DNA from: an uncultured Alphaproteobacteria bacterium
Lineage (GTDB): Bacteria; Pseudomonadota; Alphaproteobacteria; HIMB59; GCA-002718135
DNA length: 45,022 nucleotides
Assembly: GCA_902619045.1 (NCBI GenBank)
Contig: CACNCX010000003.1
Coordinates: forward strand, 1 to 45,022
Direction of reading: 5' to 3'
Position 1 is the stretch's first letter, and each line of letters starts with the position of its first letter. Of the stretch, positions 5,400 to 37,436 are shown one piece after another. The notes below the pieces were generated by a model. That model saw only the letters and a list, made by a program, of their open reading frames with translations, made no database searches and was not told the DNA's origin. The position numbers and the translations under genes were made by a program.

Positions 5400-6947
5400 T
5401 TATTTTTTTAAATATTCTCTTAACTGATTTACCGATAGGACTTTTAACACAATTACTAATCCAAAATAAATAATTATAGATAAAAAGATCATCAGAAATA
5501 AAAGTGTTGAATTTAATAACACTGAATTACCACTTATATTTGCAAAGAATAGTCCATTTAATAGGTAGATTCCTGCAAATAATAGAAATGAACTTAGTAA
5601 AATTTTAATAGAATTCTTTACTAAAAGATCGTCAAATTTCATATGATTCCTAATAGCTAAAAAGAGGTACAGTAATAATGCATTTATCCATGCACTAATT
5701 GCTGTTGCAACAGCAATTCCCATTTCTCTCATTGATCCAATTAAAAGTAGCGATAACACAACATTACTAATCACACTGACAATAGATATATAGAGTGGTG
5801 TTTTAGTATCTTCTCTTGCAAAGTAACAGGAAACTAAAACTTTAATTATAATGTAAGCAGGTAGACCTATAGCAAAGTAACTTAATACTTTAGCAGTATA
5901 AAAAGTATCTTCTTTTACAAATGCACCTCGTTCAAATAAAATATGAATAATGGGTTCAGCTAAAATAAATAGTCCTAGGGCTGATGGTAAAGAAATTAAT
6001 AATGAAAATTCAATAGATCTATTTTGAATATTATTTGTTGTTTCTTGATCTGATTGTTTAATAGCCTTTGATAAACTTGGTAAAAGAACTATGCCAAGTG
6101 CTATTCCAAAGATGGCAAGTGGTAATTGGTTAAGACGATCCGCATAATAAATATGACTGATAGCACCCACTGGTAAAAAGGAGGCGATAATAGTGCCAAT
6201 AACAATGTTTAACTGAATAACACCTGAACCAACAACACCTGGTAAAAATAATTTGAAAAACTTTTTTAATTTTTCATTTAAAACTGGAAGGATAATACGT
6301 GGTCGATAAAAGTTTAAAACCGACCTGTATAAATATAGAAATTGTAACACTCCTCCTATTAATACACCATACGATAATGCGTGACCTGCAGTAGTTACAA
6401 ATGGTGTTAAAAAGAATAATGACAGAATAAAACTTATATTCAAAATGGCAGGAGCAAATGCACCAGCAGCGAAACGTTCATGAACATTATTAATTGAAGC
6501 AAAGTGAGCAGCTAAGGAAATAAAAATAATATAAGGGAAAATTATTTTTCCAAAATGCACAGCAAGTTCATAGGCTTCTTTATTATCGGTAAAACCTGGT
6601 GCTAAAACTTGAATGATATTATGCATTCCAAAGAAAAAAAGGATCGTTAAAACGACCGTAGCAAATAGTAACATGGAGGTTGTGTTTTCAACAAAATCAG
6701 AAGCTTCACGTTCATCTTTTGGATTGAGAACAACACCAGAGAAAACCGGGATTAATGCAGCACTGTATGCTCCTTCTGCTAGGACACGACGAAAGAAATT
6801 AGGAATACGAAATGCTACGAAGAATGCGTCAGCAATTACTGTCGATCCAAGATATCTTGCTATTAATATGTCACGAATAAAACCTAATACTCGACTTAAA
6901 AATGTATAGAAGCTGACAGTAAAGAATGATCTAAAAAGACTCTTCAT
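5400..6947 (-). CDS. murJ: MurJ, lipid II flippase
   Basis: Polytopic inner-membrane flippase moving lipid II to the periplasmic face for peptidoglycan synthesis. 515 residues with about 14 hydrophobic segments. The N-terminus [17 protein letters not shown] and the following [16 protein letters not shown] are diagnostic of the MurJ/MviN family, with its conserved arginines. The ORF starts at ATG 6947. It leads the murJ-trpS pair and follows phoB after a 54-bp gap in which I see no convincing terminator, so read-through from phoB is possible. Confidence 0.97.
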
Positions 6948-24513: not shown

Positions 24514-25176
24514 ATGTTTGGATTAAAAAGTGCATCATTATTTGGTGATACCAAAAAGCTTGAAAGAGAAATTGATGAGTTTGTTGATATTGTCTCTGAA
24601 GTGGGCTTAGTATTTAAATCGATAGTTCCAACTTATCTCAATCATTCCGCCAATGGTAAATTTGAGGAAATGGTTGAAAAAGTTAAAGAAATGGAAAGTA
24701 AGGCCGACAAAATTACAAAAGATGTTGAGCATACTCTTTATGAAGAAACACTAATCCCAGATGCAAGAAGTGATGTGTTACGACTTCTAGAACACATCGA
24801 CGAATTAATTGGAATGTACCAAGGAAATTGCTATCACTTCTCTATTCAAAAACCTAATTTTCCAAAAGAATTTCATGAAGATCTTATTGAGTTAACAGAG
24901 ACTGTTGTAAATTGTGTTGAGTCACTTTGTTTGACTGTCCGATCATTTTTTAGAGATATTAAATCTGTTAGAGATAATGCTCATAAAGTAACTTTTTATG
25001 AAAAAGAATCTGATATAAAATTTAGTTCACTTGCAAGAAGAATTTTTGATTCTGAATTACCTCTAGATCAAAAAATGCATCTTCGATATTTTGTAGAAAA
25101 GATTGATCGTATTTGTGATCAAGCAGAAGACATAGCTGACGAGGTTCAAATTTACGCTATTAAACGTTCCGTTTAA
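24514..25176 (+). CDS. DUF47 family PhoU-like protein, Pit accessory
   Basis: 220-residue all-helical PhoU-related protein of the DUF47 family, typically encoded directly upstream of pit and thought to modulate the transporter. Recognisable features include MEKVKEMESKADKITKDVE (about 54-72), the metal-binding-like LRLLEHIDELIGMYQGN and the C-terminal VEKIDRICDQAEDIADEVQ. It lies 6 bp upstream of pit in the same operon. Distinct from the true PhoU at 7727-8437 in length and motifs. Confidence 0.9.
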   Translation: MFGLKSASLFGDTKKLEREIDEFVDIVSEVGLVFKSIVPTYLNHSANGKFEEMVEKVKEMESKADKITKDVEHTLYEETLIPDARSDVLRLLEHIDELIGMYQGNCYHFSIQKPNFPKEFHEDLIELTETVVNCVESLCLTVRSFFRDIKSVRDNAHKVTFYEKESDIKFSSLARRIFDSELPLDQKMHLRYFVEKIDRICDQAEDIADEVQIYAIKRSV

Positions 25177-25182
25177 TTTTCA

Positions 25183-26235
25183 ATGGAAATTACAATTCTA
25201 ATTTTTTTATTTGGTGGTCTTTTTTTAGGTTGGTCACTTGGTGCCAATGATGCAGCAAATGTTTTTGGAACTGCAGTTGGAACACGAATGGTTAGTTTCA
25301 CAAGTGCAGCAATAATTTGTAGTGTCTTTGTTATTCTAGGTGCAATTATTAGCGGAGCAGGTACAACAGAAACCTTAGGAAAGTTAGGTGCTATTAATGC
25401 ATTGCCTGGTGCTTTTGCAGCATGTGTGGCTGCAGGAATATCTGTTTATTTAATGACTAAAGTTGGCTTGCCTGTTTCAACAACGCAAGCAATTGTTGGA
25501 GCAATTGTTGGTTGGAATTTATACACGGGATCTTCAACTAATCTTCAAGTTTTAATTACTATTTTAGGAACATGGATACTCTGCCCTATCATTGCAGGAG
25601 TTATTGCAATGGGTTTATTTACTTTTACAAAAAGAGTTATACTCAATAGAAAATTACATATTCTCAGACTTGATGCCTATACAAGAACAGCTTTACTTTT
25701 AGCGGGTGCTTTTGGTGCTTATAGTTTAGGTGCAAACAATATTGCTAATGTAATGGGTGTCTTCGTACCTATATCACCGTTTACTGATGTTACTATTGGA
25801 AATTTATTCGTCTTTTCCTCAAAAGAACAACTATTTCTGCTGGGTGGTTTAGCCATAGCTGTTGGTGTTTTTACTTACTCGAAAAGAGTTATGTTTACCG
25901 TGGGTAATGATCTCTTAAAAATGACACCAGTGGCAGCATTTATTGTTGTTATATCGCATTCTATTGTTTTATTTTTATTTGCATCCCAGGGCATAAGTGC
26001 TTTTTTACAATCTATAAATCTTCCTTCTATACCTTTGGTACCAGTATCAAGTTCCCAAGCTGTTGTTGGTGGCGTAATTGGAATTGGTCTTTTAAAAGGA
26101 GGAAAAGAGGTTCAATGGTCAATTGCAGGAAGAATTTCTTTGGGTTGGATGACGCTACCTATAATTGCAGCTTTAATTTCTTTAATTGTTTTATTTATTC
26201 TAGAAAATATTTTTAATTTAACGGTCTCTTTTTAA
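25183..26235 (+). CDS. pit: PiT-family inorganic phosphate transporter
   Basis: Low-affinity, ion-coupled phosphate permease. The duplicated PiT signatures are both present: GANDAANVFGTAVG in the N-terminal half and GANNIANVMG in the second half, with further repeats VGLPVSTTQAIVGAIVG and VPVSSSQAVVGGVIG. 350 residues with about ten membrane helices, a short bacterial form. It ends convergently with the PTP-like gene, the stops sharing TTAA. Pit is usually not induced by starvation, so the Pho-box-like motif in front of this operon is noteworthy. Confidence 0.95.
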   Translation: MEITILIFLFGGLFLGWSLGANDAANVFGTAVGTRMVSFTSAAIICSVFVILGAIISGAGTTETLGKLGAINALPGAFAACVAAGISVYLMTKVGLPVSTTQAIVGAIVGWNLYTGSSTNLQVLITILGTWILCPIIAGVIAMGLFTFTKRVILNRKLHILRLDAYTRTALLLAGAFGAYSLGANNIANVMGVFVPISPFTDVTIGNLFVFSSKEQLFLLGGLAIAVGVFTYSKRVMFTVGNDLLKMTPVAAFIVVISHSIVLFLFASQGISAFLQSINLPSIPLVPVSSSQAVVGGVIGIGLLKGGKEVQWSIAGRISLGWMTLPIIAALISLIVLFILENIFNLTVSF

Positions 26236-26756
26236 TTAACTGCTCGATAAGAAAAAATAAAATCTTCCTGTATTTTAGATTCAATAGCTCCTTTTCTTCT
26301 TGATCGCACTAAATCAATAGCTTCTTGTTTTTCATAATTAAATTCAACAAGTAAAATAGCAGCTATAGTGCCAGCTCTTCCTTTTCCTCCACGACAATGT
26401 AAGACTATATTTTTACCATCTATCAATTCGTTCTTTAATAAAACTTTTGTTGTTTCCCATTTATATTTAAAATCTTTATCTGGTGCTCCCATGTCATAAA
26501 TGGGTAAATGGTACCAATGTAATTTATGTTCATAAATATTTTTGACAAACAAAGTTTTATCACACAATTTTTCAAATTCGCTATCTTCAACAAAAGAAGT
26601 AATAGAACTACAATTATTATTTTTAAATATTTCTAATTCGTTTGCTAAAATTGTTTCTTCAAATAAACCATTAGAGTTAAGACCTGGGAAAGAAGTTAAT
26701 ATAATTTTTCCTGCAAATGACTTAGAGTCAATAAAATCATAATTGCTAAATTGCAT
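26232..26756 (-). CDS. Dual-specificity/tyrosine phosphatase-like protein
   Basis: Cysteine-based phosphatase of the PTP/DSP superfamily. The signature HCRGGKGRAGT gives the P-loop CX5R with Cys121 and Arg127; an aspartate at about residue 88 or 93 could be the general acid. 174 residues, one domain, no signal peptide. It overall resembles CDKN3/kinase-associated phosphatase-type proteins. It is directly downstream of the PhnZ-like gene with no gap (26756/26757), so both are probably in one transcript. The substrate could be a phosphoprotein or a small phosphorylated metabolite; nothing here decides. Confidence 0.8.
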   Translation of the reverse strand: MQFSNYDFIDSKSFAGKIILTSFPGLNSNGLFEETILANELEIFKNNNCSSITSFVEDSEFEKLCDKTLFVKNIYEHKLHWYHLPIYDMGAPDKDFKYKWETTKVLLKNELIDGKNIVLHCRGGKGRAGTIAAILLVEFNYEKQEAIDLVRSRRKGAIESKIQEDFIFSYRAVN

Positions 26757-27332
26757 TTACGCTTGTTTAGCTAAAAAAGACTCTCTTGCTTCTTCTAAAT
26801 AGGGACGGAAATGTTCAACATCGGGAGTTTTTTTATCTAGAACTTTTGCTAAATCATCAAATCTCCTAAGCTCTATTGCTTCATCCATAAAAGGTTTGCT
26901 TATAAATGCATCTGCTTCTTCTTTTGTGAAAGGACCGCCTTGAACTTTTAATGAAAGTTTCGATGCTTCTGATAGGCTATCATAATAACCCTCTTCAACA
27001 CTTGATAAATATCTTTTTGAGTCAACATGTGCTCTAATTGGTAAAATAACATCCTCACCAAAATATTTTTTTAAAAAATCAGCACCTAAATTTTCATGAT
27101 GACCATCTTTGCCTTCATGAATGGGATCGCCGTCCTCATAGATAAGGTGGCCAACATCATGCAGTAATGCTGCAGCAATTGTTGGTCCTGGTAATTTATT
27201 TTTTTCAGCAAGTTCAGCGCATTGGAGTGCGTGCTCAAGCTGTGTCACATCCTCATTACCATATTGAATATCAGCACCTTTTGTTTTCAAAAGATCTAAG
27301 AGATAATCTACAATATTTTCTTTCATTCTCAT
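26757..27332 (-). CDS. PhnZ-like HD-domain oxygenase (phosphonate-degradation HD protein)
   Basis: 191-residue HD-domain protein of the type linked to phosphonate breakdown. PhnZ, a mixed-valent di-iron oxygenase, converts 2-amino-1-hydroxyethylphosphonate to glycine and phosphate. Residues Tyr24, Glu27, His34, His58 and Asp59, which I recall as PhnZ active-site positions, occur here at the same numbers (YGNE, LEHA, LLHDVGH), with further histidines in HEGKDGHHEN. This argues for an oxygenase instead of a phosphohydrolase HD protein. It is divergent from phnW across 88 bp. The usual partner PhnY* (an Fe/2-oxoglutarate hydroxylase) is absent from the window. ATG at 27326 is an alternative start. 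Confidence 0.82.
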   Translation of the reverse strand: MRMKENIVDYLLDLLKTKGADIQYGNEDVTQLEHALQCAELAEKNKLPGPTIAAALLHDVGHLIYEDGDPIHEGKDGHHENLGADFLKKYFGEDVILPIRAHVDSKRYLSSVEEGYYDSLSEASKLSLKVQGGPFTKEEADAFISKPFMDEAIELRRFDDLAKVLDKKTPDVEHFRPYLEEARESFLAKQA

Positions 27333-27420
27333 TTATAATTAACTTATTAGAAAATAAATTCAATTCCAACTTTAATAAGATTGATCAAATTTATAATAAT
27401 ATTTATTAAGTAAATATTTA

Positions 27421-28518
27421 ATGGATAAAAAATTATTAACCCCTGGGCCTCTCACGACATCGATGTCAACAAAAGAGGCAATGCTTCATGATTGGGGTTC
27501 GAGAGATACAAAATTTATTGATCTCAATGCATCAATTAGAGATTCCCTTGTTAAATTAATAGACGGTGAAGATAAATATCAATGTGTTCCAATGCAGGGA
27601 AGTGGAACTTTTGCTGTAGAGTCGATGGTGAGCTCTCTTACTCAAAAAGATTCTAAAATTCTGATTCTGATCAATGGTGCTTACGGACAAAGAATGAAAA
27701 AAATGTGCACATATTTAGGGAGAGATTTTATTGAATATGAAGTTGCTGAACATGAAGTACATGACATCAATAAAATTGAAGAGTTAATTGATAACAACAA
27801 CTTAACACACGTCTTTGCTGTATATTGTGAAACAACATCGGGTATTTTAAATCCTATTGAAGACATTGCAAAATTGGTTGAAGGGAAAAATTTATCGTTA
27901 TTCATCGATGCAATGAGTGCCTTTGGTGCATTACCCTTAAGTTCTAAAACAATTACTTTTGATGCTGTAGCCGCTTCATCAAACAAATGCTTAGAAGGTG
28001 TGCCAGGTGTTGGTTTCATTCTTGTAAAAAATGAAGTTATTCAAAATGCAAAAGGCAATAGTCACTCACTAAGTCTAGACTTGTATGATCAATGGCAAGC
28101 AATGGAAAAAAATAAACAATGGCGATTTACACCTCCAACACACGTATTAGCTGCATTCAACCAAGCTATTGAAGAACATAAAGAACAAGGCGGTGTAGAA
28201 GGAAGAGGTAAAAGATATAAAAAAAATTGTGAAATTATTTGTAATGGAATGAAAGAGTTGGGATTTGAGCAACTACTTCCTGATAATTTACAAGCACCAA
28301 TTATTATTACTTTTAAACAACCTAATGATCCTAAATTTAACTTTGACCAATTTTATAATGCTCTTAGTGAAAAAGATTTTTTAATTTATCCAGGAAAACT
28401 AACAGTGGCAGAAACTTTTAGAATTGGGTGTATTGGTAATTTAAATGAACAAGACATGATGGATACAATAAAAGCTGTAAAAGAAGTTGTTACTGAGTTG
28501 GGACTAACATTAAACTAA
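27421..28518 (+). CDS. phnW: 2-aminoethylphosphonate:pyruvate transaminase
   Basis: PLP enzyme that moves the amino group of 2-aminoethylphosphonate to pyruvate, giving phosphonoacetaldehyde and alanine. The start MDKKLLTPGPLTTSMSTKEA is the PhnW hallmark; the PLP lysine is in ASSNKCLEGVPGVGF and the cofactor aspartate in LFIDAMSAFG. 365 residues, standard. There is no phnX (phosphonatase) in the window; instead phnY and phnA are present, so the product is expected to go through phosphonoacetate. The AllA-like gene follows after 7 bp. Confidence 0.94.
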   Translation: MDKKLLTPGPLTTSMSTKEAMLHDWGSRDTKFIDLNASIRDSLVKLIDGEDKYQCVPMQGSGTFAVESMVSSLTQKDSKILILINGAYGQRMKKMCTYLGRDFIEYEVAEHEVHDINKIEELIDNNNLTHVFAVYCETTSGILNPIEDIAKLVEGKNLSLFIDAMSAFGALPLSSKTITFDAVAASSNKCLEGVPGVGFILVKNEVIQNAKGNSHSLSLDLYDQWQAMEKNKQWRFTPPTHVLAAFNQAIEEHKEQGGVEGRGKRYKKNCEIICNGMKELGFEQLLPDNLQAPIIITFKQPNDPKFNFDQFYNALSEKDFLIYPGKLTVAETFRIGCIGNLNEQDMMDTIKAVKEVVTELGLTLN

Positions 28519-28525
28519 CAAAACA

Positions 28526-29158
28526 ATGACAAAAGAAATTGAAATACCTTTAGTTAAAGCAACAAATGAAAATCTTAAAGGATATGGGTATTTAATCGAT
28601 AGTTTTGAAAATAGTGATATTGAAATTGTTACTTGGCCAAAACAAGGATGGCGTGACATAGAAGAGGGAACTGGTAATGAAGGTGGAACTACCGAAGGTT
28701 CTTTTGATACCTGGTGGCAAGGTGACGTGCTTTATGGGCAAAATAATGCTGTTCAACATAAGAGCGATTATGAAGTAGATGGAAAATATATACTGGGTTA
28801 TGCCAATAATCCTGATCAAGAATTACAAAAAGATAAATATTCAGATCCAACAAAAATTTTTTTATGGCATGCAAATTATCATCCTGATGGAGGTCAGCTT
28901 TTCTTTCCTGAAGAAAATAAACCATTTATTTGTCCTTTAGCCTTACCTACAGACGACATTGAACCAGAACATTTTAAAGCATTTTATTGTGACGGATCAA
29001 AAGGTTTGTATATTCATCCAAATATTTGGCATGAAGGGGTGTTTCCAGTTACAGAAAAACAATCGTTTCAAGGAAAACAAGGTAAAGTACATGCAAGAGT
29101 TAGCATCGACTTAAAAGAGGAATTTAATAAGTATATTTATTTTAAAACTGCGATCTAA
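28526..29158 (+). CDS. AllA-like (ureidoglycolate lyase superfamily) cupin protein
   Basis: 210-residue protein resembling the ureidoglycolate lyase/AllA cupin superfamily: KGYGYLIDSFEN at the N-terminus matches the family opening, the C-terminal part has AFYCDGSKGLYIHPNIWHEGVFPV and GKVHARVSIDLKEEF. The rest, including an aromatic, glycine-rich stretch GTGNEGGTTEGSFDTWWQG, is unlike classical AllA, and no other purine-degradation gene is nearby. Its place 7 bp after phnW and opposite the PhnZ-like gene suggests a role in phosphonate metabolism. I cannot name the reaction; confidence is in the fold, not the function. Confidence 0.65.
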   Translation: MTKEIEIPLVKATNENLKGYGYLIDSFENSDIEIVTWPKQGWRDIEEGTGNEGGTTEGSFDTWWQGDVLYGQNNAVQHKSDYEVDGKYILGYANNPDQELQKDKYSDPTKIFLWHANYHPDGGQLFFPEENKPFICPLALPTDDIEPEHFKAFYCDGSKGLYIHPNIWHEGVFPVTEKQSFQGKQGKVHARVSIDLKEEFNKYIYFKTAI

Positions 29159-29178: not shown

Positions 29179-29967
29179 ATGAAAATTATTCACCTTTCAG
29201 ACCCTCATATTTATATTGATAAGATTCATGGCATAGATCCTGTCAGTAAATTTAAAAAAGCATTAACTCATATAAAAAATAATCATGGTGATGCAGATTT
29301 ATTTGCCATCACAGGTGATATTACAGACTTAGGTGATAAAGATTCTTATCAGTTATTTTTAAAAATAATTGATGAAGCAGGTCTGCCGAAGAATTTAAAT
29401 CCTCAACTAATTATAGGTAATCATGATAACAGAGATGAATTTAAAATAAACTTTCCTAATATTGAAACCGATCCAAATGGATTTATTCAATACTTTAAGG
29501 ATATAGATAATAAACGTTTAATTTTTATAGATACTAATCTGATTAACACTCACCAAGGACATTATTGTGAAGAGAGGCAAGAATGGTTAAATAATATTTT
29601 AAGTAAGACTAATACGGATACGTACATCTTTATGCATCATAATCCACTGGCATTAGTAAAAGAGGAAAGTGATGGAATAGGATTACAACAAAAAAAAGAG
29701 TTTCAACAAATTTTAACTAAAAATAATAATATAATAAAACATATTTTTTTTGGTCATCAACACATTACAAGTTCTGGCTCTTATTGTGGTATTACTTTTT
29801 CCTCCCCAAGAAGTACTTGGTCTCCTCTAATACCTAACTTTTCAAATGAATATCGTTTAGGAACGGCTAATACAGATACAAATTATAATGTTGCAATAAT
29901 TCGATCTGACGCCTTAATTATTCATACAGAGGATTTTTTAAAAACAGAAGTTAATTGGTTTAAATAA
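29179..29967 (+). CDS. GpdQ/CpdA-like metallophosphodiesterase
   Basis: Binuclear metallophosphoesterase of the class III cyclic-nucleotide phosphodiesterase group, which includes GpdQ (glycerophosphodiesterase). Metal motifs in order: HLSDPHIY (about 5-12), GDITDLGD, IGNHDNR, MHHNPLA and FGHQHITS. 262 residues, no signal peptide, so it acts in the cytoplasm. It follows the AllA-like gene by 20 bp in a phnW-allA-like-pde operon. GpdQ-type enzymes accept phosphodiesters and phosphonate monoesters, which suits this cluster; cAMP hydrolysis is the alternative. Confidence 0.83.
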   Translation: MKIIHLSDPHIYIDKIHGIDPVSKFKKALTHIKNNHGDADLFAITGDITDLGDKDSYQLFLKIIDEAGLPKNLNPQLIIGNHDNRDEFKINFPNIETDPNGFIQYFKDIDNKRLIFIDTNLINTHQGHYCEERQEWLNNILSKTNTDTYIFMHHNPLALVKEESDGIGLQQKKEFQQILTKNNNIIKHIFFGHQHITSSGSYCGITFSSPRSTWSPLIPNFSNEYRLGTANTDTNYNVAIIRSDALIIHTEDFLKTEVNWFK

Positions 29968-29971
29968 AAAA

Positions 29972-31078
29972 TTATTTTTTTTCGATTACAAATATTTCAT
30001 TGTTAAAATAAAGACCTTTATTTTTAGCAACAATGTTTTGAACAATTTTTTCATAGTTTTTAGTTTTTTCTACTTTCATTACTTTGTCGTCATCCATTTG
30101 ATTGACATATATGGAGGCATTCCAAGCAGAAAAAACTAATGATGTCGCTATACCTCCGCTGATTTCTGTTGGTAGAGCTCTCAATTTACATTTAATAATT
30201 CTTTTTTCTCCAAAAGATAATCTTCTTAATAAATCTTTATCTAAATTTTTCTTAAGATAAGAAATGATACTATTTCCAAGAGAAGGAAATGGGTCCTCTT
30301 TTGGCCAAATTTTACGAATTATTTCATTAGCAGGATCTTTTCCTGAAGCATGAATAGTTAATAATTTCCCTTTTGATTTTAACGCTCTAATCATTGGTTC
30401 GATGACATATTTTGATTTCTTTTCTGCTGTGATTCTTGAACGATAAGGCTGTGAAGCAATAATAAGATCAAATTTATTATCTGATTTTTTTTTGGTAGGT
30501 ATTAATTCATTTACATTAAATTCTTGATCTTCGCGGTAGATAACCATGACTGAAGGCTCTTTATAAGTATGGTTACCTGACTTTTTATTAATTTCTATAT
30601 TCCATTTTTTTTCTAAAAATTCATTTTGTTTTCTTAATTGTTGGGCAAATTCAAGAGAGGTATCTCCTTTTAATTTAATAATATTCCAATTAATTTTTTT
30701 CTGTTTAACTTCATTTTTTGATTTTAGGTTTGCAGCTTCAGCGTAGTGTAGATTTGAAATGACAAAAACCGTATTCTTATGTTCAACAAACCTATCGGGT
30801 AATTTTTCTAAACCTAATCTTACATCTTCTATGCTTATTTCTTTTGTGCAAACTAATAAAGGTACGTTAGGCTTAGCCTCGTGGCACTGACGCATAACAT
30901 TCATAAGTAAGGAACCATCACCCATACCAGCATCAAATATTTTTATACCAGGTTTTTGAGGTTTAATTTTATTTACGTGAGGGCGTATCGCATCAGCAAT
31001 TTGATTTTTTTCATTTGTTGTTGTGACAAATAATAAGTATTTTTGTCTGTTATCATAAAACCTGAAATTTTTTTTCAT
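29972..31078 (-). CDS. Class I SAM-dependent methyltransferase-like protein
   Basis: 368 residues. A Rossmann methyltransferase core is suggested by motif I IKIFDAGMGDGSLL (about 43-56) and by FDLIIASQPYRS (about 211-222), placed like the (N/D)PPY motif; KSKGKLLTIHASGKDP resembles the later strand. The surrounding sequence is lysine-rich and I do not recognise a specific family. It is the last gene of a minus-strand trio with the iron alcohol dehydrogenase (2-bp gap) and the MetE-like gene. The substrate is unknown; methylation of a phosphonate or amine is only a contextual guess. Confidence 0.6.
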   Translation of the reverse strand: MKKNFRFYDNRQKYLLFVTTTNEKNQIADAIRPHVNKIKPQKPGIKIFDAGMGDGSLLMNVMRQCHEAKPNVPLLVCTKEISIEDVRLGLEKLPDRFVEHKNTVFVISNLHYAEAANLKSKNEVKQKKINWNIIKLKGDTSLEFAQQLRKQNEFLEKKWNIEINKKSGNHTYKEPSVMVIYREDQEFNVNELIPTKKKSDNKFDLIIASQPYRSRITAEKKSKYVIEPMIRALKSKGKLLTIHASGKDPANEIIRKIWPKEDPFPSLGNSIISYLKKNLDKDLLRRLSFGEKRIIKCKLRALPTEISGGIATSLVFSAWNASIYVNQMDDDKVMKVEKTKNYEKIVQNIVAKNKGLYFNNEIFVIEKK

Positions 31079-31080
31079 TA

Positions 31081-32193
31081 CTAATAAAGTCCCATTGATT
31101 TAGCAGAAGAGATGAAGGCTTCTTTATTGCCAATAAAGTTTTTACCTCGTTCCCCTAAAAACGCATCATCTACTATATTATTCCATTCTTGAATAGGAAC
31201 TTTTATTTCATTTAAGTTAAGAGGAACCTCTAAAGAACGCATAAATTCACTCAGATGATTTGCGGCATTCTCTAGGTTATCGTTAAAAATTAGTTTTAGT
31301 CTTTCTTCAGCTACACTATCAATGCCAACCATACTTTTAGTAATCATGGGTAATGTAAATGAGCAAGCAATACCATGTTGAATGCCGTAATTGAGCGTCA
31401 CAGGGTATGATAGATTGTGCGCAATAGCAGTTTTTGTATTGGAAAACGCTAAGCCAGCATGAACGCATGCCAGTGCAATGTTTGAACGTAATTCAACGCT
31501 TCTTAAATCTTTAGCGAGAAGTGGTAAATTTTCTAATACTAATTTTGATGCTTGTATTGCATGAGAAGCAGAAATTGGGTTTGCATTAATATTCCAAATA
31601 CTTTCCATTGAATGAGAGAGAGCATCTAAACCTGTTGAAATGGTCAAGCCTAAAGGCTTATCAACCATAATTGATGGATCGATAATTGCTTTTTCTGCAT
31701 AAAGAGATTTATGCGCCAAAGATAATTTATTGTTTTTTTCTTTATCCCAAATTGTGGCCCAACACGTAAGCTCACTTGATGTTCCTGAAGTTGTAGGTAT
31801 TGCAATAATCTTGATTGGATTTTTGACTCTTGGACTTTTCTTATTGCGAACGAAATCTGTTAGATATTCTTGTTTATCTTTAAAAGCAGCAATTGCTTTA
31901 GCTGTGTCTGTAACAGAGCCACCACCTATAGCTAAAATATAATCTACCGATTCATTGATTGAAGAAAATTTTTTTTGTAGCTCTAAAATATCCTTATAAT
32001 CTGGATTAGGCTGAACATCCGTCATAATGGATAGTGGTGGATTTGAAGAAGATTTTAATTCATCGCTATATTTTTTAAAAATTTCTTCTGGATGAGTGAT
32101 TATGATGTAGTTCTTATTTTTAAGAGCATCATGTACTTCTGTAAATCTATTTTCTCCAAAGATAATTTCAACAGGATTAAAATAATTCCACAT
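31081..32193 (-). CDS. Iron-containing alcohol dehydrogenase, phosphonate-associated type
   Basis: Group III (iron) alcohol dehydrogenase, 370 residues. The NAD-binding loop is AIGGGSVTDTAKAIA (about 91-105). The four metal ligands are visible: Asp and His in GLDALSHSMESIW, His in AIAHNLSYP and His in YGIQHGIACSF. The opening MWNYFNPVEIIFGENRF resembles the subgroup found in phosphonate operons, related to phosphonoacetaldehyde reductases. It could interconvert 2-hydroxyethylphosphonate and phosphonoacetaldehyde, feeding PhnY. That role is inferred from context; family membership is firm. Confidence 0.85.
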   Translation of the reverse strand: MWNYFNPVEIIFGENRFTEVHDALKNKNYIIITHPEEIFKKYSDELKSSSNPPLSIMTDVQPNPDYKDILELQKKFSSINESVDYILAIGGGSVTDTAKAIAAFKDKQEYLTDFVRNKKSPRVKNPIKIIAIPTTSGTSSELTCWATIWDKEKNNKLSLAHKSLYAEKAIIDPSIMVDKPLGLTISTGLDALSHSMESIWNINANPISASHAIQASKLVLENLPLLAKDLRSVELRSNIALACVHAGLAFSNTKTAIAHNLSYPVTLNYGIQHGIACSFTLPMITKSMVGIDSVAEERLKLIFNDNLENAANHLSEFMRSLEVPLNLNEIKVPIQEWNNIVDDAFLGERGKNFIGNKEAFISSAKSMGLY

Positions 32194-34755: not shown

Positions 34756-36198
34756 TTACCAAGGTAGCGAAAAGGTTTTTACATTAGTAAAACTTTTCAT
34801 TGCTTCAATAACACCCTCTTTGTAACCAAGACCTGAATCTTTAATTCCTCCAAAAGGAGACATTTCAATTCTATAGCCTGGAACTTCCCAAATATTTACA
34901 GTGCCAACATTTAAGCCTTGAATATATTTTTTTGCTCGCATGAAGTTATTTGTACATACACCAGATGATAATCCGAATGCAGTTGAATTAGATATTTTCA
35001 TTACAGCTTCATCGTCATTAGGCACACGAATGATTGGTATAACTGGACCAAATGTTTCTTCTAAAACTAATTCACTTTTAGGATCAACATGATCTACAAC
35101 TATTGGAGGTAACAAAGCACCCTTTCTTCCAGGGTGATATAAAATTTTTGCACCGTCTTCTTCTGCCATTGAAACTCTTTTATCAAAAAGTTCTGCAGCT
35201 TGAGCATTAACAACTGTACCTAAGTCTGTTTCCATATTCATAGGATCACCAAATTTAATTTTCTTAGCACGCTCAAGAGCCATTTCAACAAATTGATCTG
35301 CAATAGATTCTTGAACCAGTATTCTTTTAACAGCTGTACAACGTTGACCAGAATTTTTCGTTGCTCCCGTAACAGCTAGCTCAACAGCTTTTTTAAGATC
35401 ATCACCATCTAAGTCATTTAAAACAATTAATGGATCATTACCACCTAACTCAAGAACAGTTCTTTTGTATCCAGCTTGTTCGGCAATTAATTTTCCTACA
35501 CCTACACTACCTGTAAAAGTAATGAGATCAATATTTGGATTCTTGATCATTTCTGATCCGATATCTTGAGGCCATCCAGTTACAACTGAAAACATTTCTG
35601 GTGGCAGACCTGCTTCATATAAAACATCAGCGAGTACCATTGCTGTTAAAGGTGTTAATTCTGTCTGCTTACATACTGTACAATTATTAGTTGCAATTGA
35701 AGGAGCAATTTTATGCGCTACCATATTCAAAGGGTGATTAAATGGAGTGATTGCTGAAATTGCCGTTAAAGGTTCTCTTATGGTAAATATTTTTCTCGCT
35801 TTTCCATGCGGAGTTAAATCACAAGAAAATATTTCTCCATCATCAAGAATACAAAGTTGAGCCGTTAAAGAAAAGACATCAAAAGCTCTTCCTACTTCGT
35901 ATAGAGAATCTTGTTTTGAAATACCAAGTTCTAAAGTAATAATATCAGAAATTTCTTCTTTTCTTTTAACAAGTACTTCTGCAGCAGTTTGAAGAATTTT
36001 TTGTCTCTCGTATCTTGTAAGTTTAGGTTGGTAATTTGCAGCAATATCTAAAGCCTTTCTTGCATGCTCTGCAGTACCGGCTGGAACCGTTCCGATTACT
36101 TCACCTGTAAAAGGGTACTCAACATTTATTGTTTTATCTGAAGTAACTTTTTCTCCAGCAATACGCATTGCTTCATTAATCATTTTTTTGTGCATCAT
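34756..36198 (-). CDS. phnY: Phosphonoacetaldehyde dehydrogenase
   Basis: Aldehyde dehydrogenase superfamily enzyme oxidising phosphonoacetaldehyde to phosphonoacetate with NAD(P). The catalytic cysteine is in [12 protein letters not shown], the general-base glutamate in VLELGGNDP, and [11 protein letters not shown] is the cofactor-binding segment. 480 residues, typical. It overlaps phnA by 4 bp (ATGA) with GGAG upstream, and is followed after 137 bp by the binding-protein gene. Linkage to phnA and phnW makes the phosphonate substrate assignment strong. Confidence 0.92.
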
Positions 36199-37436
36199 AG
36201 GGCTCCATTTATTGCATAATAAAATGCATCATAGTTATATAATTGTTTGCTAGTATCTAAGTTTTGTAATTTTAAATTTGATATGAATGGAACCTCTCTT
36301 TCATGGAGTCCTCCATGAGAACGTAAAGGTTCATTTAATCCAGAAAGATTGTGTTTATCTTCCGATGAACCAATAGTCATAAATTCTGAAGACATACATA
36401 TAATATCCCCCATTCTATCAGGAGGTAAATTATAAGTAGAGCATCCTTCATCTTTTGTTAAAACAACTTCTATATCTTTTATTTCTTTAATAGCATTTAC
36501 AACTGAATCTACCCTGCTCTTGTCTTCTAAATAAATTGTTGCAAAAGAACCAAGTGAACCATGATGAACGACATATGGATCTGTAATTGGTAGGATGACT
36601 TTAGCCATGTTTGGTTCAAATTTTTTATCTAAATAATCTTGTAAAAATATTGCATTAGGTGAACCATCTTCTTTTGATTTTGGTTTCATTCCGTGATCTG
36701 CTGTGATGATTATAGAAACATTCTCCTTATTTAAAAGACCAATATATTTATCAAACATTGCATAAAATTTATTTGCTGTTTCATTTCCCGGAGCATATTT
36801 GTGTTGAATATAATCTGTAGTCGATAAATACATGATATTTGGTTTGAACTCTTCAAGAAGCTTTACACCTGCAGCCATTACAAATTCAGAAAGTCCTTCA
36901 GAATATACTTCTGGCACTGGCATCCCCAACCAATCGTTTACATTATCTATACCATTGAGATCTTTTGCTGCTTGATCAGATTTTTCAGCAGAAAAACAAA
37001 TAGCTCTCTCATCATCAAAACTTAATCCGTTTCCTAAAAGTGTTCTCAACTTGTCTTTTGCAGTAACAAGAGCAATTTTAGAACCAGAATTGTAAAATTT
37101 TTCAAAAATAGTTGGTGCTCGCATATATTTTGGATCATTCATCATTACTTCTTCACCAGTCTCAGGTGTATAAAAGAAGTTTCCGCATATACCGTGTACA
37201 GAACTTGGTTGGCCTGTTACAATCGAAATGTTATTTGGATTTGTAAAACTTGGAATAGCGCTGTGAACAAGTAGGTTTTCACCACTTGCAATTAATTTAT
37301 CAAGATTTGGTGTAAGATTAGATTTTGATGCTTCTTCGAGATACTCTTTTTGACTACCATCAAGGCATATAACAATAGCAGTTTTTGAGAAAGAGCTTGG
37401 ATATTCTCTTTTATTAATTTCTAAATTATCGGACAC
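36195..37436 (-). CDS. phnA: Phosphonoacetate hydrolase
   Basis: Alkaline-phosphatase-superfamily zinc enzyme cleaving the C-P bond of phosphonoacetate to acetate and phosphate. Metal ligand Asp26 is in VICLDGS and the nucleophile Thr65 in IPSFTNPNN; further ligands are in [11 protein letters not shown] and SHGGLHE. 413 residues, standard. It begins with GTG. First gene of the phnA-phnY-binding-protein operon and divergent from ugpC. Together with PhnW and PhnY it completes a phosphonatase-independent 2-aminoethylphosphonate pathway. Confidence 0.94.

Follow-up and report, generated by a model that had tools for sequence, protein, structure and literature searches.

The source family of the DNA studied here is abundant in the ocean, where 2-aminoethylphosphonate (AEP) is the commonest phosphonate and a main source of organic phosphorus. 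The hydrolytic AEP pathway has already been reported for the order HIMB59 (PMC11366302), and the co-occurrence of phnZ with phnWAY has been described in marine bacteria (PMC9381506). In an earlier survey, phnZ was present in 24 of 75 phnWAY clusters and was read as a separate system for the processing of 1-hydroxy-2-aminoethylphosphonate (R-HAEP; PMC8154272, Table 1). PhnW slowly transaminates R-HAEP; the aldehyde product, which is no substrate for PhnX, is probably 1-hydroxy-phosphonoacetaldehyde, an assignment that was tentative and made without positive identification (PMC8154272). Additionally, PbfA, PbfB-D, and PbfF widen the substrate range of AEP clusters (PMC8154272, PMC10590968, PMC12366243).

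The window analyzed in this study is a stretch of 45,022 nucleotides (contig CACNCX010000003.1) from an uncultured alphaproteobacterium of this order, whose genome (G000) is 54% complete; the relatives of the source genome were marine single-cell genomes and one MarineAlpha5 bin, names that fit the AEGEAN-169/HIMB59 order. Genes encoding an HD-domain protein, PhnW, and an AllA-like cupin were found where the initial annotation had placed them, and all three enzymes of the PhnW-PhnY-PhnA hydrolytic pathway scored above the curated cut-offs (Table 1). As a whole, the window is best explained as part of an aminophosphonate-scavenging island, a reading to which we assign a probability of roughly 45%. 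PhnW, PhnY, and PhnA would degrade AEP through phosphonoacetaldehyde, and R-HAEP imported as such would be split independently to glycine and phosphate by the PhnZ-type oxygenase, which would need no hydroxylase of its own. The AllA-like protein encoded beside PhnW would be a metal cupin that acts on a by-product of the PhnW reaction, either an aldehyde or a compound of the carbinol type.

Table 1. Predicted features of the window and the matches that bear on their names
Feature	Coordinates	Strand	Length	Match or remark
PhoU-like protein and PiT-type phosphate transporter, flank of the island	24514..26235	+		named from ORF reading only
DSP/PTP-like phosphatase	26232..26756	-		PF22784, 48.7 bits; abuts the 3' end of the PhnZ-type gene
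PhnZ-type HD-domain mixed-valent diiron oxygenase, predicted R-HAEP oxygenase	26757..27332	-	191 aa	TIGR03276 family
phnW, 2-aminoethylphosphonate:pyruvate transaminase	27421..28518	+	365 aa	TIGR03301, 466.5 bits (cut-off 360.8); TIGR02326, 459.5 bits (cut-off 400.8)
AllA-like cupin, phnW-coupled subfamily, putative function	28526..29158	+	210 aa	PF04115 over residues 119-182 only
Calcineurin-like metallophosphoesterase, after the AllA-like gene	29179..29967	+		PF00149, 63.3 bits; NF050112, 175 bits (below cut-off 400)
Phosphonate-type iron alcohol dehydrogenase (PsrA-like)	31081..32193	-		TIGR03405, 363 bits (below cut-off 423.7)
phnY, phosphonoacetaldehyde dehydrogenase	34756..36198	-		TIGR03250, 797 bits (cut-off 635.65)
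phnA, phosphonoacetate hydrolase	36195..37436	-		TIGR02335, 467 bits (cut-off 407.55)

The PTP-like phosphatase gene adjoined the PhnZ-type gene in 80 of the 89 loci having the latter, the PhoU/PiT-type genes were kept beside it in relatives, and the metallophosphoesterase gene was next after the AllA-like gene in many relatives, not all. In relatives, the PhnZ-type gene was always found inside the phosphate/AEP island. The 368-aa protein encoded at 29972-31078 was likewise kept in the island throughout the family; its sole match, to a methyltransferase, lay below the threshold.

Within the family, the AllA-like gene was next after phnW in all 98 loci in which upstream DNA was present. The 7 bp that the initial annotation had counted between the phnW stop codon and the AllA-like ATG were confirmed, and this gap was the usual one among the family loci, ten of which had a 4-base overlap. 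The coupling was unchanged where the PhnZ-type gene was at a distance of 7-14 kb, where it lay on a different contig, and where it was not found, as in the family members G002 and G103, both of which have the AllA-like gene. PhnW was looked for in 12 genomes of the order; eight had both PhnW and the AllA-like gene, and the other four had neither. In a literature search that covered few subscription journals, no paper was found in which an AllA-like cupin or a ureidoglycolate lyase is connected with phnW. The AllA-like gene is supported as a new part of the locus, belonging to phosphonate metabolism and not to that of purines, and its product is probably an unrecognised helper in AEP breakdown.

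Further genes were observed around the phnW-AllA pair in relatives. The cluster of G103 contains a PhnX-looking HAD hydrolase, AepX-type transport genes, and a PbfD-type oxidase. In four loci (L046:1636-6521, L050, L051, and L052), the genes that precede the pair encode a short-chain dehydrogenase and a quaternary-amine transporter of the ProW/OpuAC type, an arrangement that suggests the uptake of methylated aminophosphonates. In two others (L053:9333-10199 and L054:5795-6664), a choline-kinase-like protein, which also resembles the guanitoxin biosynthesis protein GntI, is encoded between PbfD and phnW.

The AllA-like protein had PF04115 as its sole Pfam match (39.9 bits), scored 33 bits against the NCBIfam equivalog of AllA (cut-off 230), and gave profile matches to the AllA structures 1xsr, 1yqc, and 2bdr. 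The AllA core, HP..Q.F.P and WH, is kept (H119, P120, Q124, F126, P128, W168, and H169), whereas the invariant Glu of the ExHP motif, found in 18/18 canonical sequences, is Asn117 in 22/22 AllA-like sequences; in the related DUF4867 structure, this position is occupied by a metal ligand (PMC11968277). Between canonical AllA and the AllA-like protein, identity was 26% over 76 residues, and the latter additionally carries a conserved H164, an invariant H189, and a longer N-terminal part with a GTGxE motif. Since an AlphaFold2 model from 14 family sequences had a mean pLDDT of only 34.8, the putative metal site was read from the sequence.

A canonical AllA is encoded elsewhere in the source genome (G000:C9:19887-20342), 14 bases after allantoicase and in a cluster with xanthine dehydrogenase, a urate-oxidase-like membrane protein, and a PuuE-like protein, all three named by sequence reading. 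This contig of a streamlined marine genome (L268:1-14951) appears to hold a complete purine degradation cluster, together with an ABC transporter of the nucleoside type. The genome G095 has allantoicase and canonical AllA, and neither PhnW nor the AllA-like gene, and 4 of the 14 AllA-like genomes outside the family lacked a match to canonical AllA and also to allantoicase. A purine link of the AllA-like family in relatives, which the initial annotation had named as evidence against its proposal, was not found, and the purine cluster of the source genome has its own AllA. Given this canonical AllA beside allantoicase and the Asn in place of the invariant Glu, we conclude that the AllA-like protein is not the purine enzyme. 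It would instead be a paralogue of ureidoglycolate lyase that moved into phosphonate catabolism, which forms part of the best explanation.

Outside the order, the AllA-like gene was sought in 380 genomes of an even set of Alphaproteobacteria, crossed with Phn-HD and PhnW. It was present in 21 genomes, with proteins about 50% identical, and was distributed as 16/30 genomes with PhnW and the PhnZ type, 2/43 with PhnW only, 3/55 with the PhnZ type only, and 0/252 with neither. The odds ratio for both partners versus one was 21 (p 1.7e-8, for genomes that are not independent). The contrast was also seen when only genomes of 3.5 Mb or more were counted (15/28 with both partners vs 4/65) and by family (9/16 vs 1/43), a way of counting that lessens the non-independence of genomes and does not remove it. 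These contrasts were chosen after the data had been seen, and the partners tried were PhnW, Phn-HD, and allantoicase only; enrichment of allantoicase with the AllA-like gene was weaker (7/16 vs 23/288, assuming overlap of the samples). Among the PhnZ-type loci read outside the family, TmpA was found in 11/19 AllA-like genomes and 6/39 others, and of the genomes whose Phn-HD loci were read, nine had TmpA together with PhnW, every one of which also had the AllA-like gene.

None of the AllA-like genes outside the family lay beside phn genes, and the link there is therefore statistical only and could reflect lifestyle. In Paraburkholderia plasmids, the gene lies beside an MFS transporter instead. 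The only recurrent neighbour of distant AllA-like genes was a divergent LysR regulator, at five loci; as it is about 30% identical to the LysR beside tmpAB, we make no claim of co-regulation. No relatives were found in viral contigs, and a scan of named genomes gave members of this family alone. Taken together, the inseparability of the AllA-like gene from phnW in the family and its occurrence outside almost only with PhnW and the PhnZ type point to a step of aminophosphonate breakdown that has yet to be assigned. The protein is small and expressible, and its list of candidate substrates is short.

The HD protein has Tyr24, Glu27, His34, His58, and Asp59 at exactly the positions named in the initial annotation, which compared them with PhnZ. 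Its diiron ligands H...HD...H...H...D are complete (H34, H58, D59, and the equivalents of PhnZ H80, H104, and D161), and it also keeps the equivalents of PhnZ H62, K108, S126, and R158, the last three of which are the phosphonate contacts in PhnZ structures. The substrate-gating YxxE loop, as defined in PMC8177086, corresponds to Y24-G-N-E27. Because Y24 and E27 are common to TmpB, these two residues alone do not mark a PhnZ acting on hydroxy-AEP. The best match in the PDB was TmpB (6npa, E 2e-33), followed by PhnZ (4mlm/4n6w, E about 2e-29), with alignments over nearly the full length. The model scores were highest for TIGR03276 (202.4 bits), followed by TmpB (158) and PhnZ1 (154), all below the curated cut-offs; that of TIGR03276, 214.6, was passed by no genome of the order.

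The nine PhnZ-type sequences of the family formed one clade (support 100/99) in a 71-sequence tree, outside the TmpB clade and adjoining Phn-HDs of C-P-lyase-type loci (91/90), one of which was verified as such by PhnM. The placement of PhnZ 4MLM, on a long branch, was unsure. Judged by its residues, the HD protein is a canonical phosphonate HD oxygenase with a complete predicted active site, and R-HAEP from outside is most likely its substrate. HD2, the weaker of the two HD proteins in the family, was discarded as a candidate phosphonate oxygenase because the active-site residues Tyr, Glu, Lys, Ser, and Arg are missing from it.

The window contained no PhyH- or TauD-type hydroxylase, in agreement with the initial annotation, which had found no gene for PhnY*, and none was detected in 101 family loci, the window included and several genomes counted twice. 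The rest of the source genome encoded six PhyH proteins, which reached at most 60 bits against the PhnY model (cut-off 500) and were ruled out as PhnY* by score and context. The absence of PhnY* refers to the loci read and to a source genome that is 54% complete. Of 60 Phn-HD loci read in other Alphaproteobacteria, 17 had an adjacent TmpA, one had an adjacent PhyH, and most had neither. A PhnZ type without a linked hydroxylase is therefore the commonest arrangement in this sample, an ordinary one already published for phnWAY clusters. As TauD-type TmpA is a commoner partner in this class than PhyH-type PhnY*, TmpA also had to be checked; with no adjacent TmpA and an HD protein outside the TmpB clade, the locus does not show the features of the TmpA-TmpB pathway.

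TauD-type proteins were observed elsewhere. A dioxygenase of the source genome (L252:5355-6428, contig C40), with no phn gene near, scored 317.7 bits for TmpA and 269.6 for gamma-butyrobetaine dioxygenase. In G108 (93% complete), a TmpA scored 490 bits, over the cut-off (L259:4439-5587), and no PhnZ/TmpB-type protein was found in that genome. In G130, of a sister family, two genes overlap (L254:4418-5545 and 5541-6143), the first for a dioxygenase of the TauD type (342 bits to TmpA) and the second for an HD-domain protein that keeps the metal ligands and is without all phosphonate-binding residues of PhnZ/TmpB. This tandem is TmpAB-like, with a substrate that is probably not a phosphonate, and its neighbour distance recurs in many genomes of that sister family.

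On the basis of these results, several readings of the two proteins were compared. The initial annotation had offered two ideas for a PhnZ-like enzyme without PhnY*, namely that it acts on environmental hydroxy-AEP or that the AllA-like protein provides its oxidised intermediate. The former is the better of the two and matches the published reading (PMC8154272). Of the overall proposal, the complete PhnZ-like site without a linked hydroxylase and the phosphonate link of the AllA-like protein stood, and the supply of an oxidised intermediate did not; that idea fits the data worst. It is true that cupins include oxygenases, that H164 and H189 could form an iron site, and that the three genes adjoin in the window and co-occur in genomes. 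However, the AllA-like gene follows phnW and not the PhnZ-type gene, occurs without the PhnZ type (in the family members G002 and G103 and, beyond the family, in G327 and G385), is rare where only the PhnZ type is present, and accompanies TmpA without replacing it, and we regard oxidation of AEP to R-HAEP by the cupin in place of PhnY* as highly improbable. A pairing of the PhnZ-type protein, acting as TmpB, with the TauD-type enzyme of contig C40 would be consistent with the TmpB match in the PDB and with the higher score of that enzyme for TmpA than for gamma-butyrobetaine dioxygenase. It is nevertheless unlikely, given a score below the TmpA cut-off of 400, a gene never linked in family loci, and an HD protein that groups with the C-P-lyase-linked Phn-HDs.

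As regards the AllA-like protein, its score for PF04115 and the ability of the source genome to make ureidoglycolate from purines might suggest an ordinary ureidoglycolate lyase recruited to the phn operon as a source of glyoxylate, which could serve, for instance, as an amino acceptor. The canonical AllA beside allantoicase, the loss of the invariant Glu in every AllA-like sequence, and the four genomes outside the family with neither canonical AllA nor allantoicase make this very unlikely. Another reading retains AllA chemistry, with the protein cleaving a carbinolamine or N-substituted AEP (C2-hydroxylated or otherwise N-substituted) to phosphonoacetaldehyde and an amine, an ancillary role like that of PbfA, PbfC, or PbfD. 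The substrate that AllA cleaves is itself a carbinolamide, and the AllA-like protein keeps the framework residues H119, Q124, W168, and H169; moreover, the neighbours of phnW-AllA in relatives (PbfD-type aminophosphonate oxidase and AepX-type, choline-kinase-like, and ProW/OpuAC-type proteins) suggest that N-substituted AEPs are handled. This lyase seems unlikely, since it does not predict that the gene should depend on PhnW and the PhnZ type together, no carbinolamine-making enzyme is constantly linked, and the invariant Glu of AllA is replaced. For the by-product reading that we prefer, 1-hydroxy-phosphonoacetaldehyde, the probable product of R-HAEP transamination by PhnW, is a candidate substrate, possible though doubtful. 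As it would arise only where PhnW meets hydroxy-AEP, it predicts that the AllA-like gene depends on both PhnW and the PhnZ type; the retention of the gene in G002 and G103 without the PhnZ type speaks in part against it. That the cupin is a novel type of enzyme in phosphonate catabolism which, acting on this aldehyde, perhaps cleaves the C-P bond itself and so joins the PhnW and R-HAEP routes is decidedly unlikely.

Compared with known systems, the HD protein resembles PhnZ and TmpB in its HD metal ligands, YxxE gate, K108/S126/R158 contacts, and full-length alignment, and differs in forming its own clade and in a locus without a PhnY* or TmpA partner. The locus shares PhnW, PhnY, PhnA, and a PhnZ-type gene without PhnY* with the published phnWAY clusters containing phnZ (PMC8154272, PMC9381506), in which, by term search, an AllA-like gene after phnW is not mentioned. 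With the Ni-dependent ureidoglycolate lyase AllA (EC 4.3.2.3; PMC3793230), the AllA-like protein has in common the HP..Q.F.P and WH core and about 80 aligned residues, and it differs by Asn117, the longer N-terminus with GTGxE, the invariant His189, and no linkage to allantoicase. SftX/SqvB of sulfoglycolysis (DUF4867; PMC11968277) are likewise AllA-related metal cupins recurrent in a catabolic cluster for organo-acid analogues, although their context is that of sulfosugars with a 2His-2Glu site, and the window protein matches PF04115 only. Finally, like PbfA, PbfB-D, and PbfF (PMC8154272, PMC10590968, PMC12366243), the AllA-like gene is a recurrent extra gene in AEP clusters; the folds of those proteins are unrelated to the AllA-like cupin, which is not among the ancillary enzymes reported.
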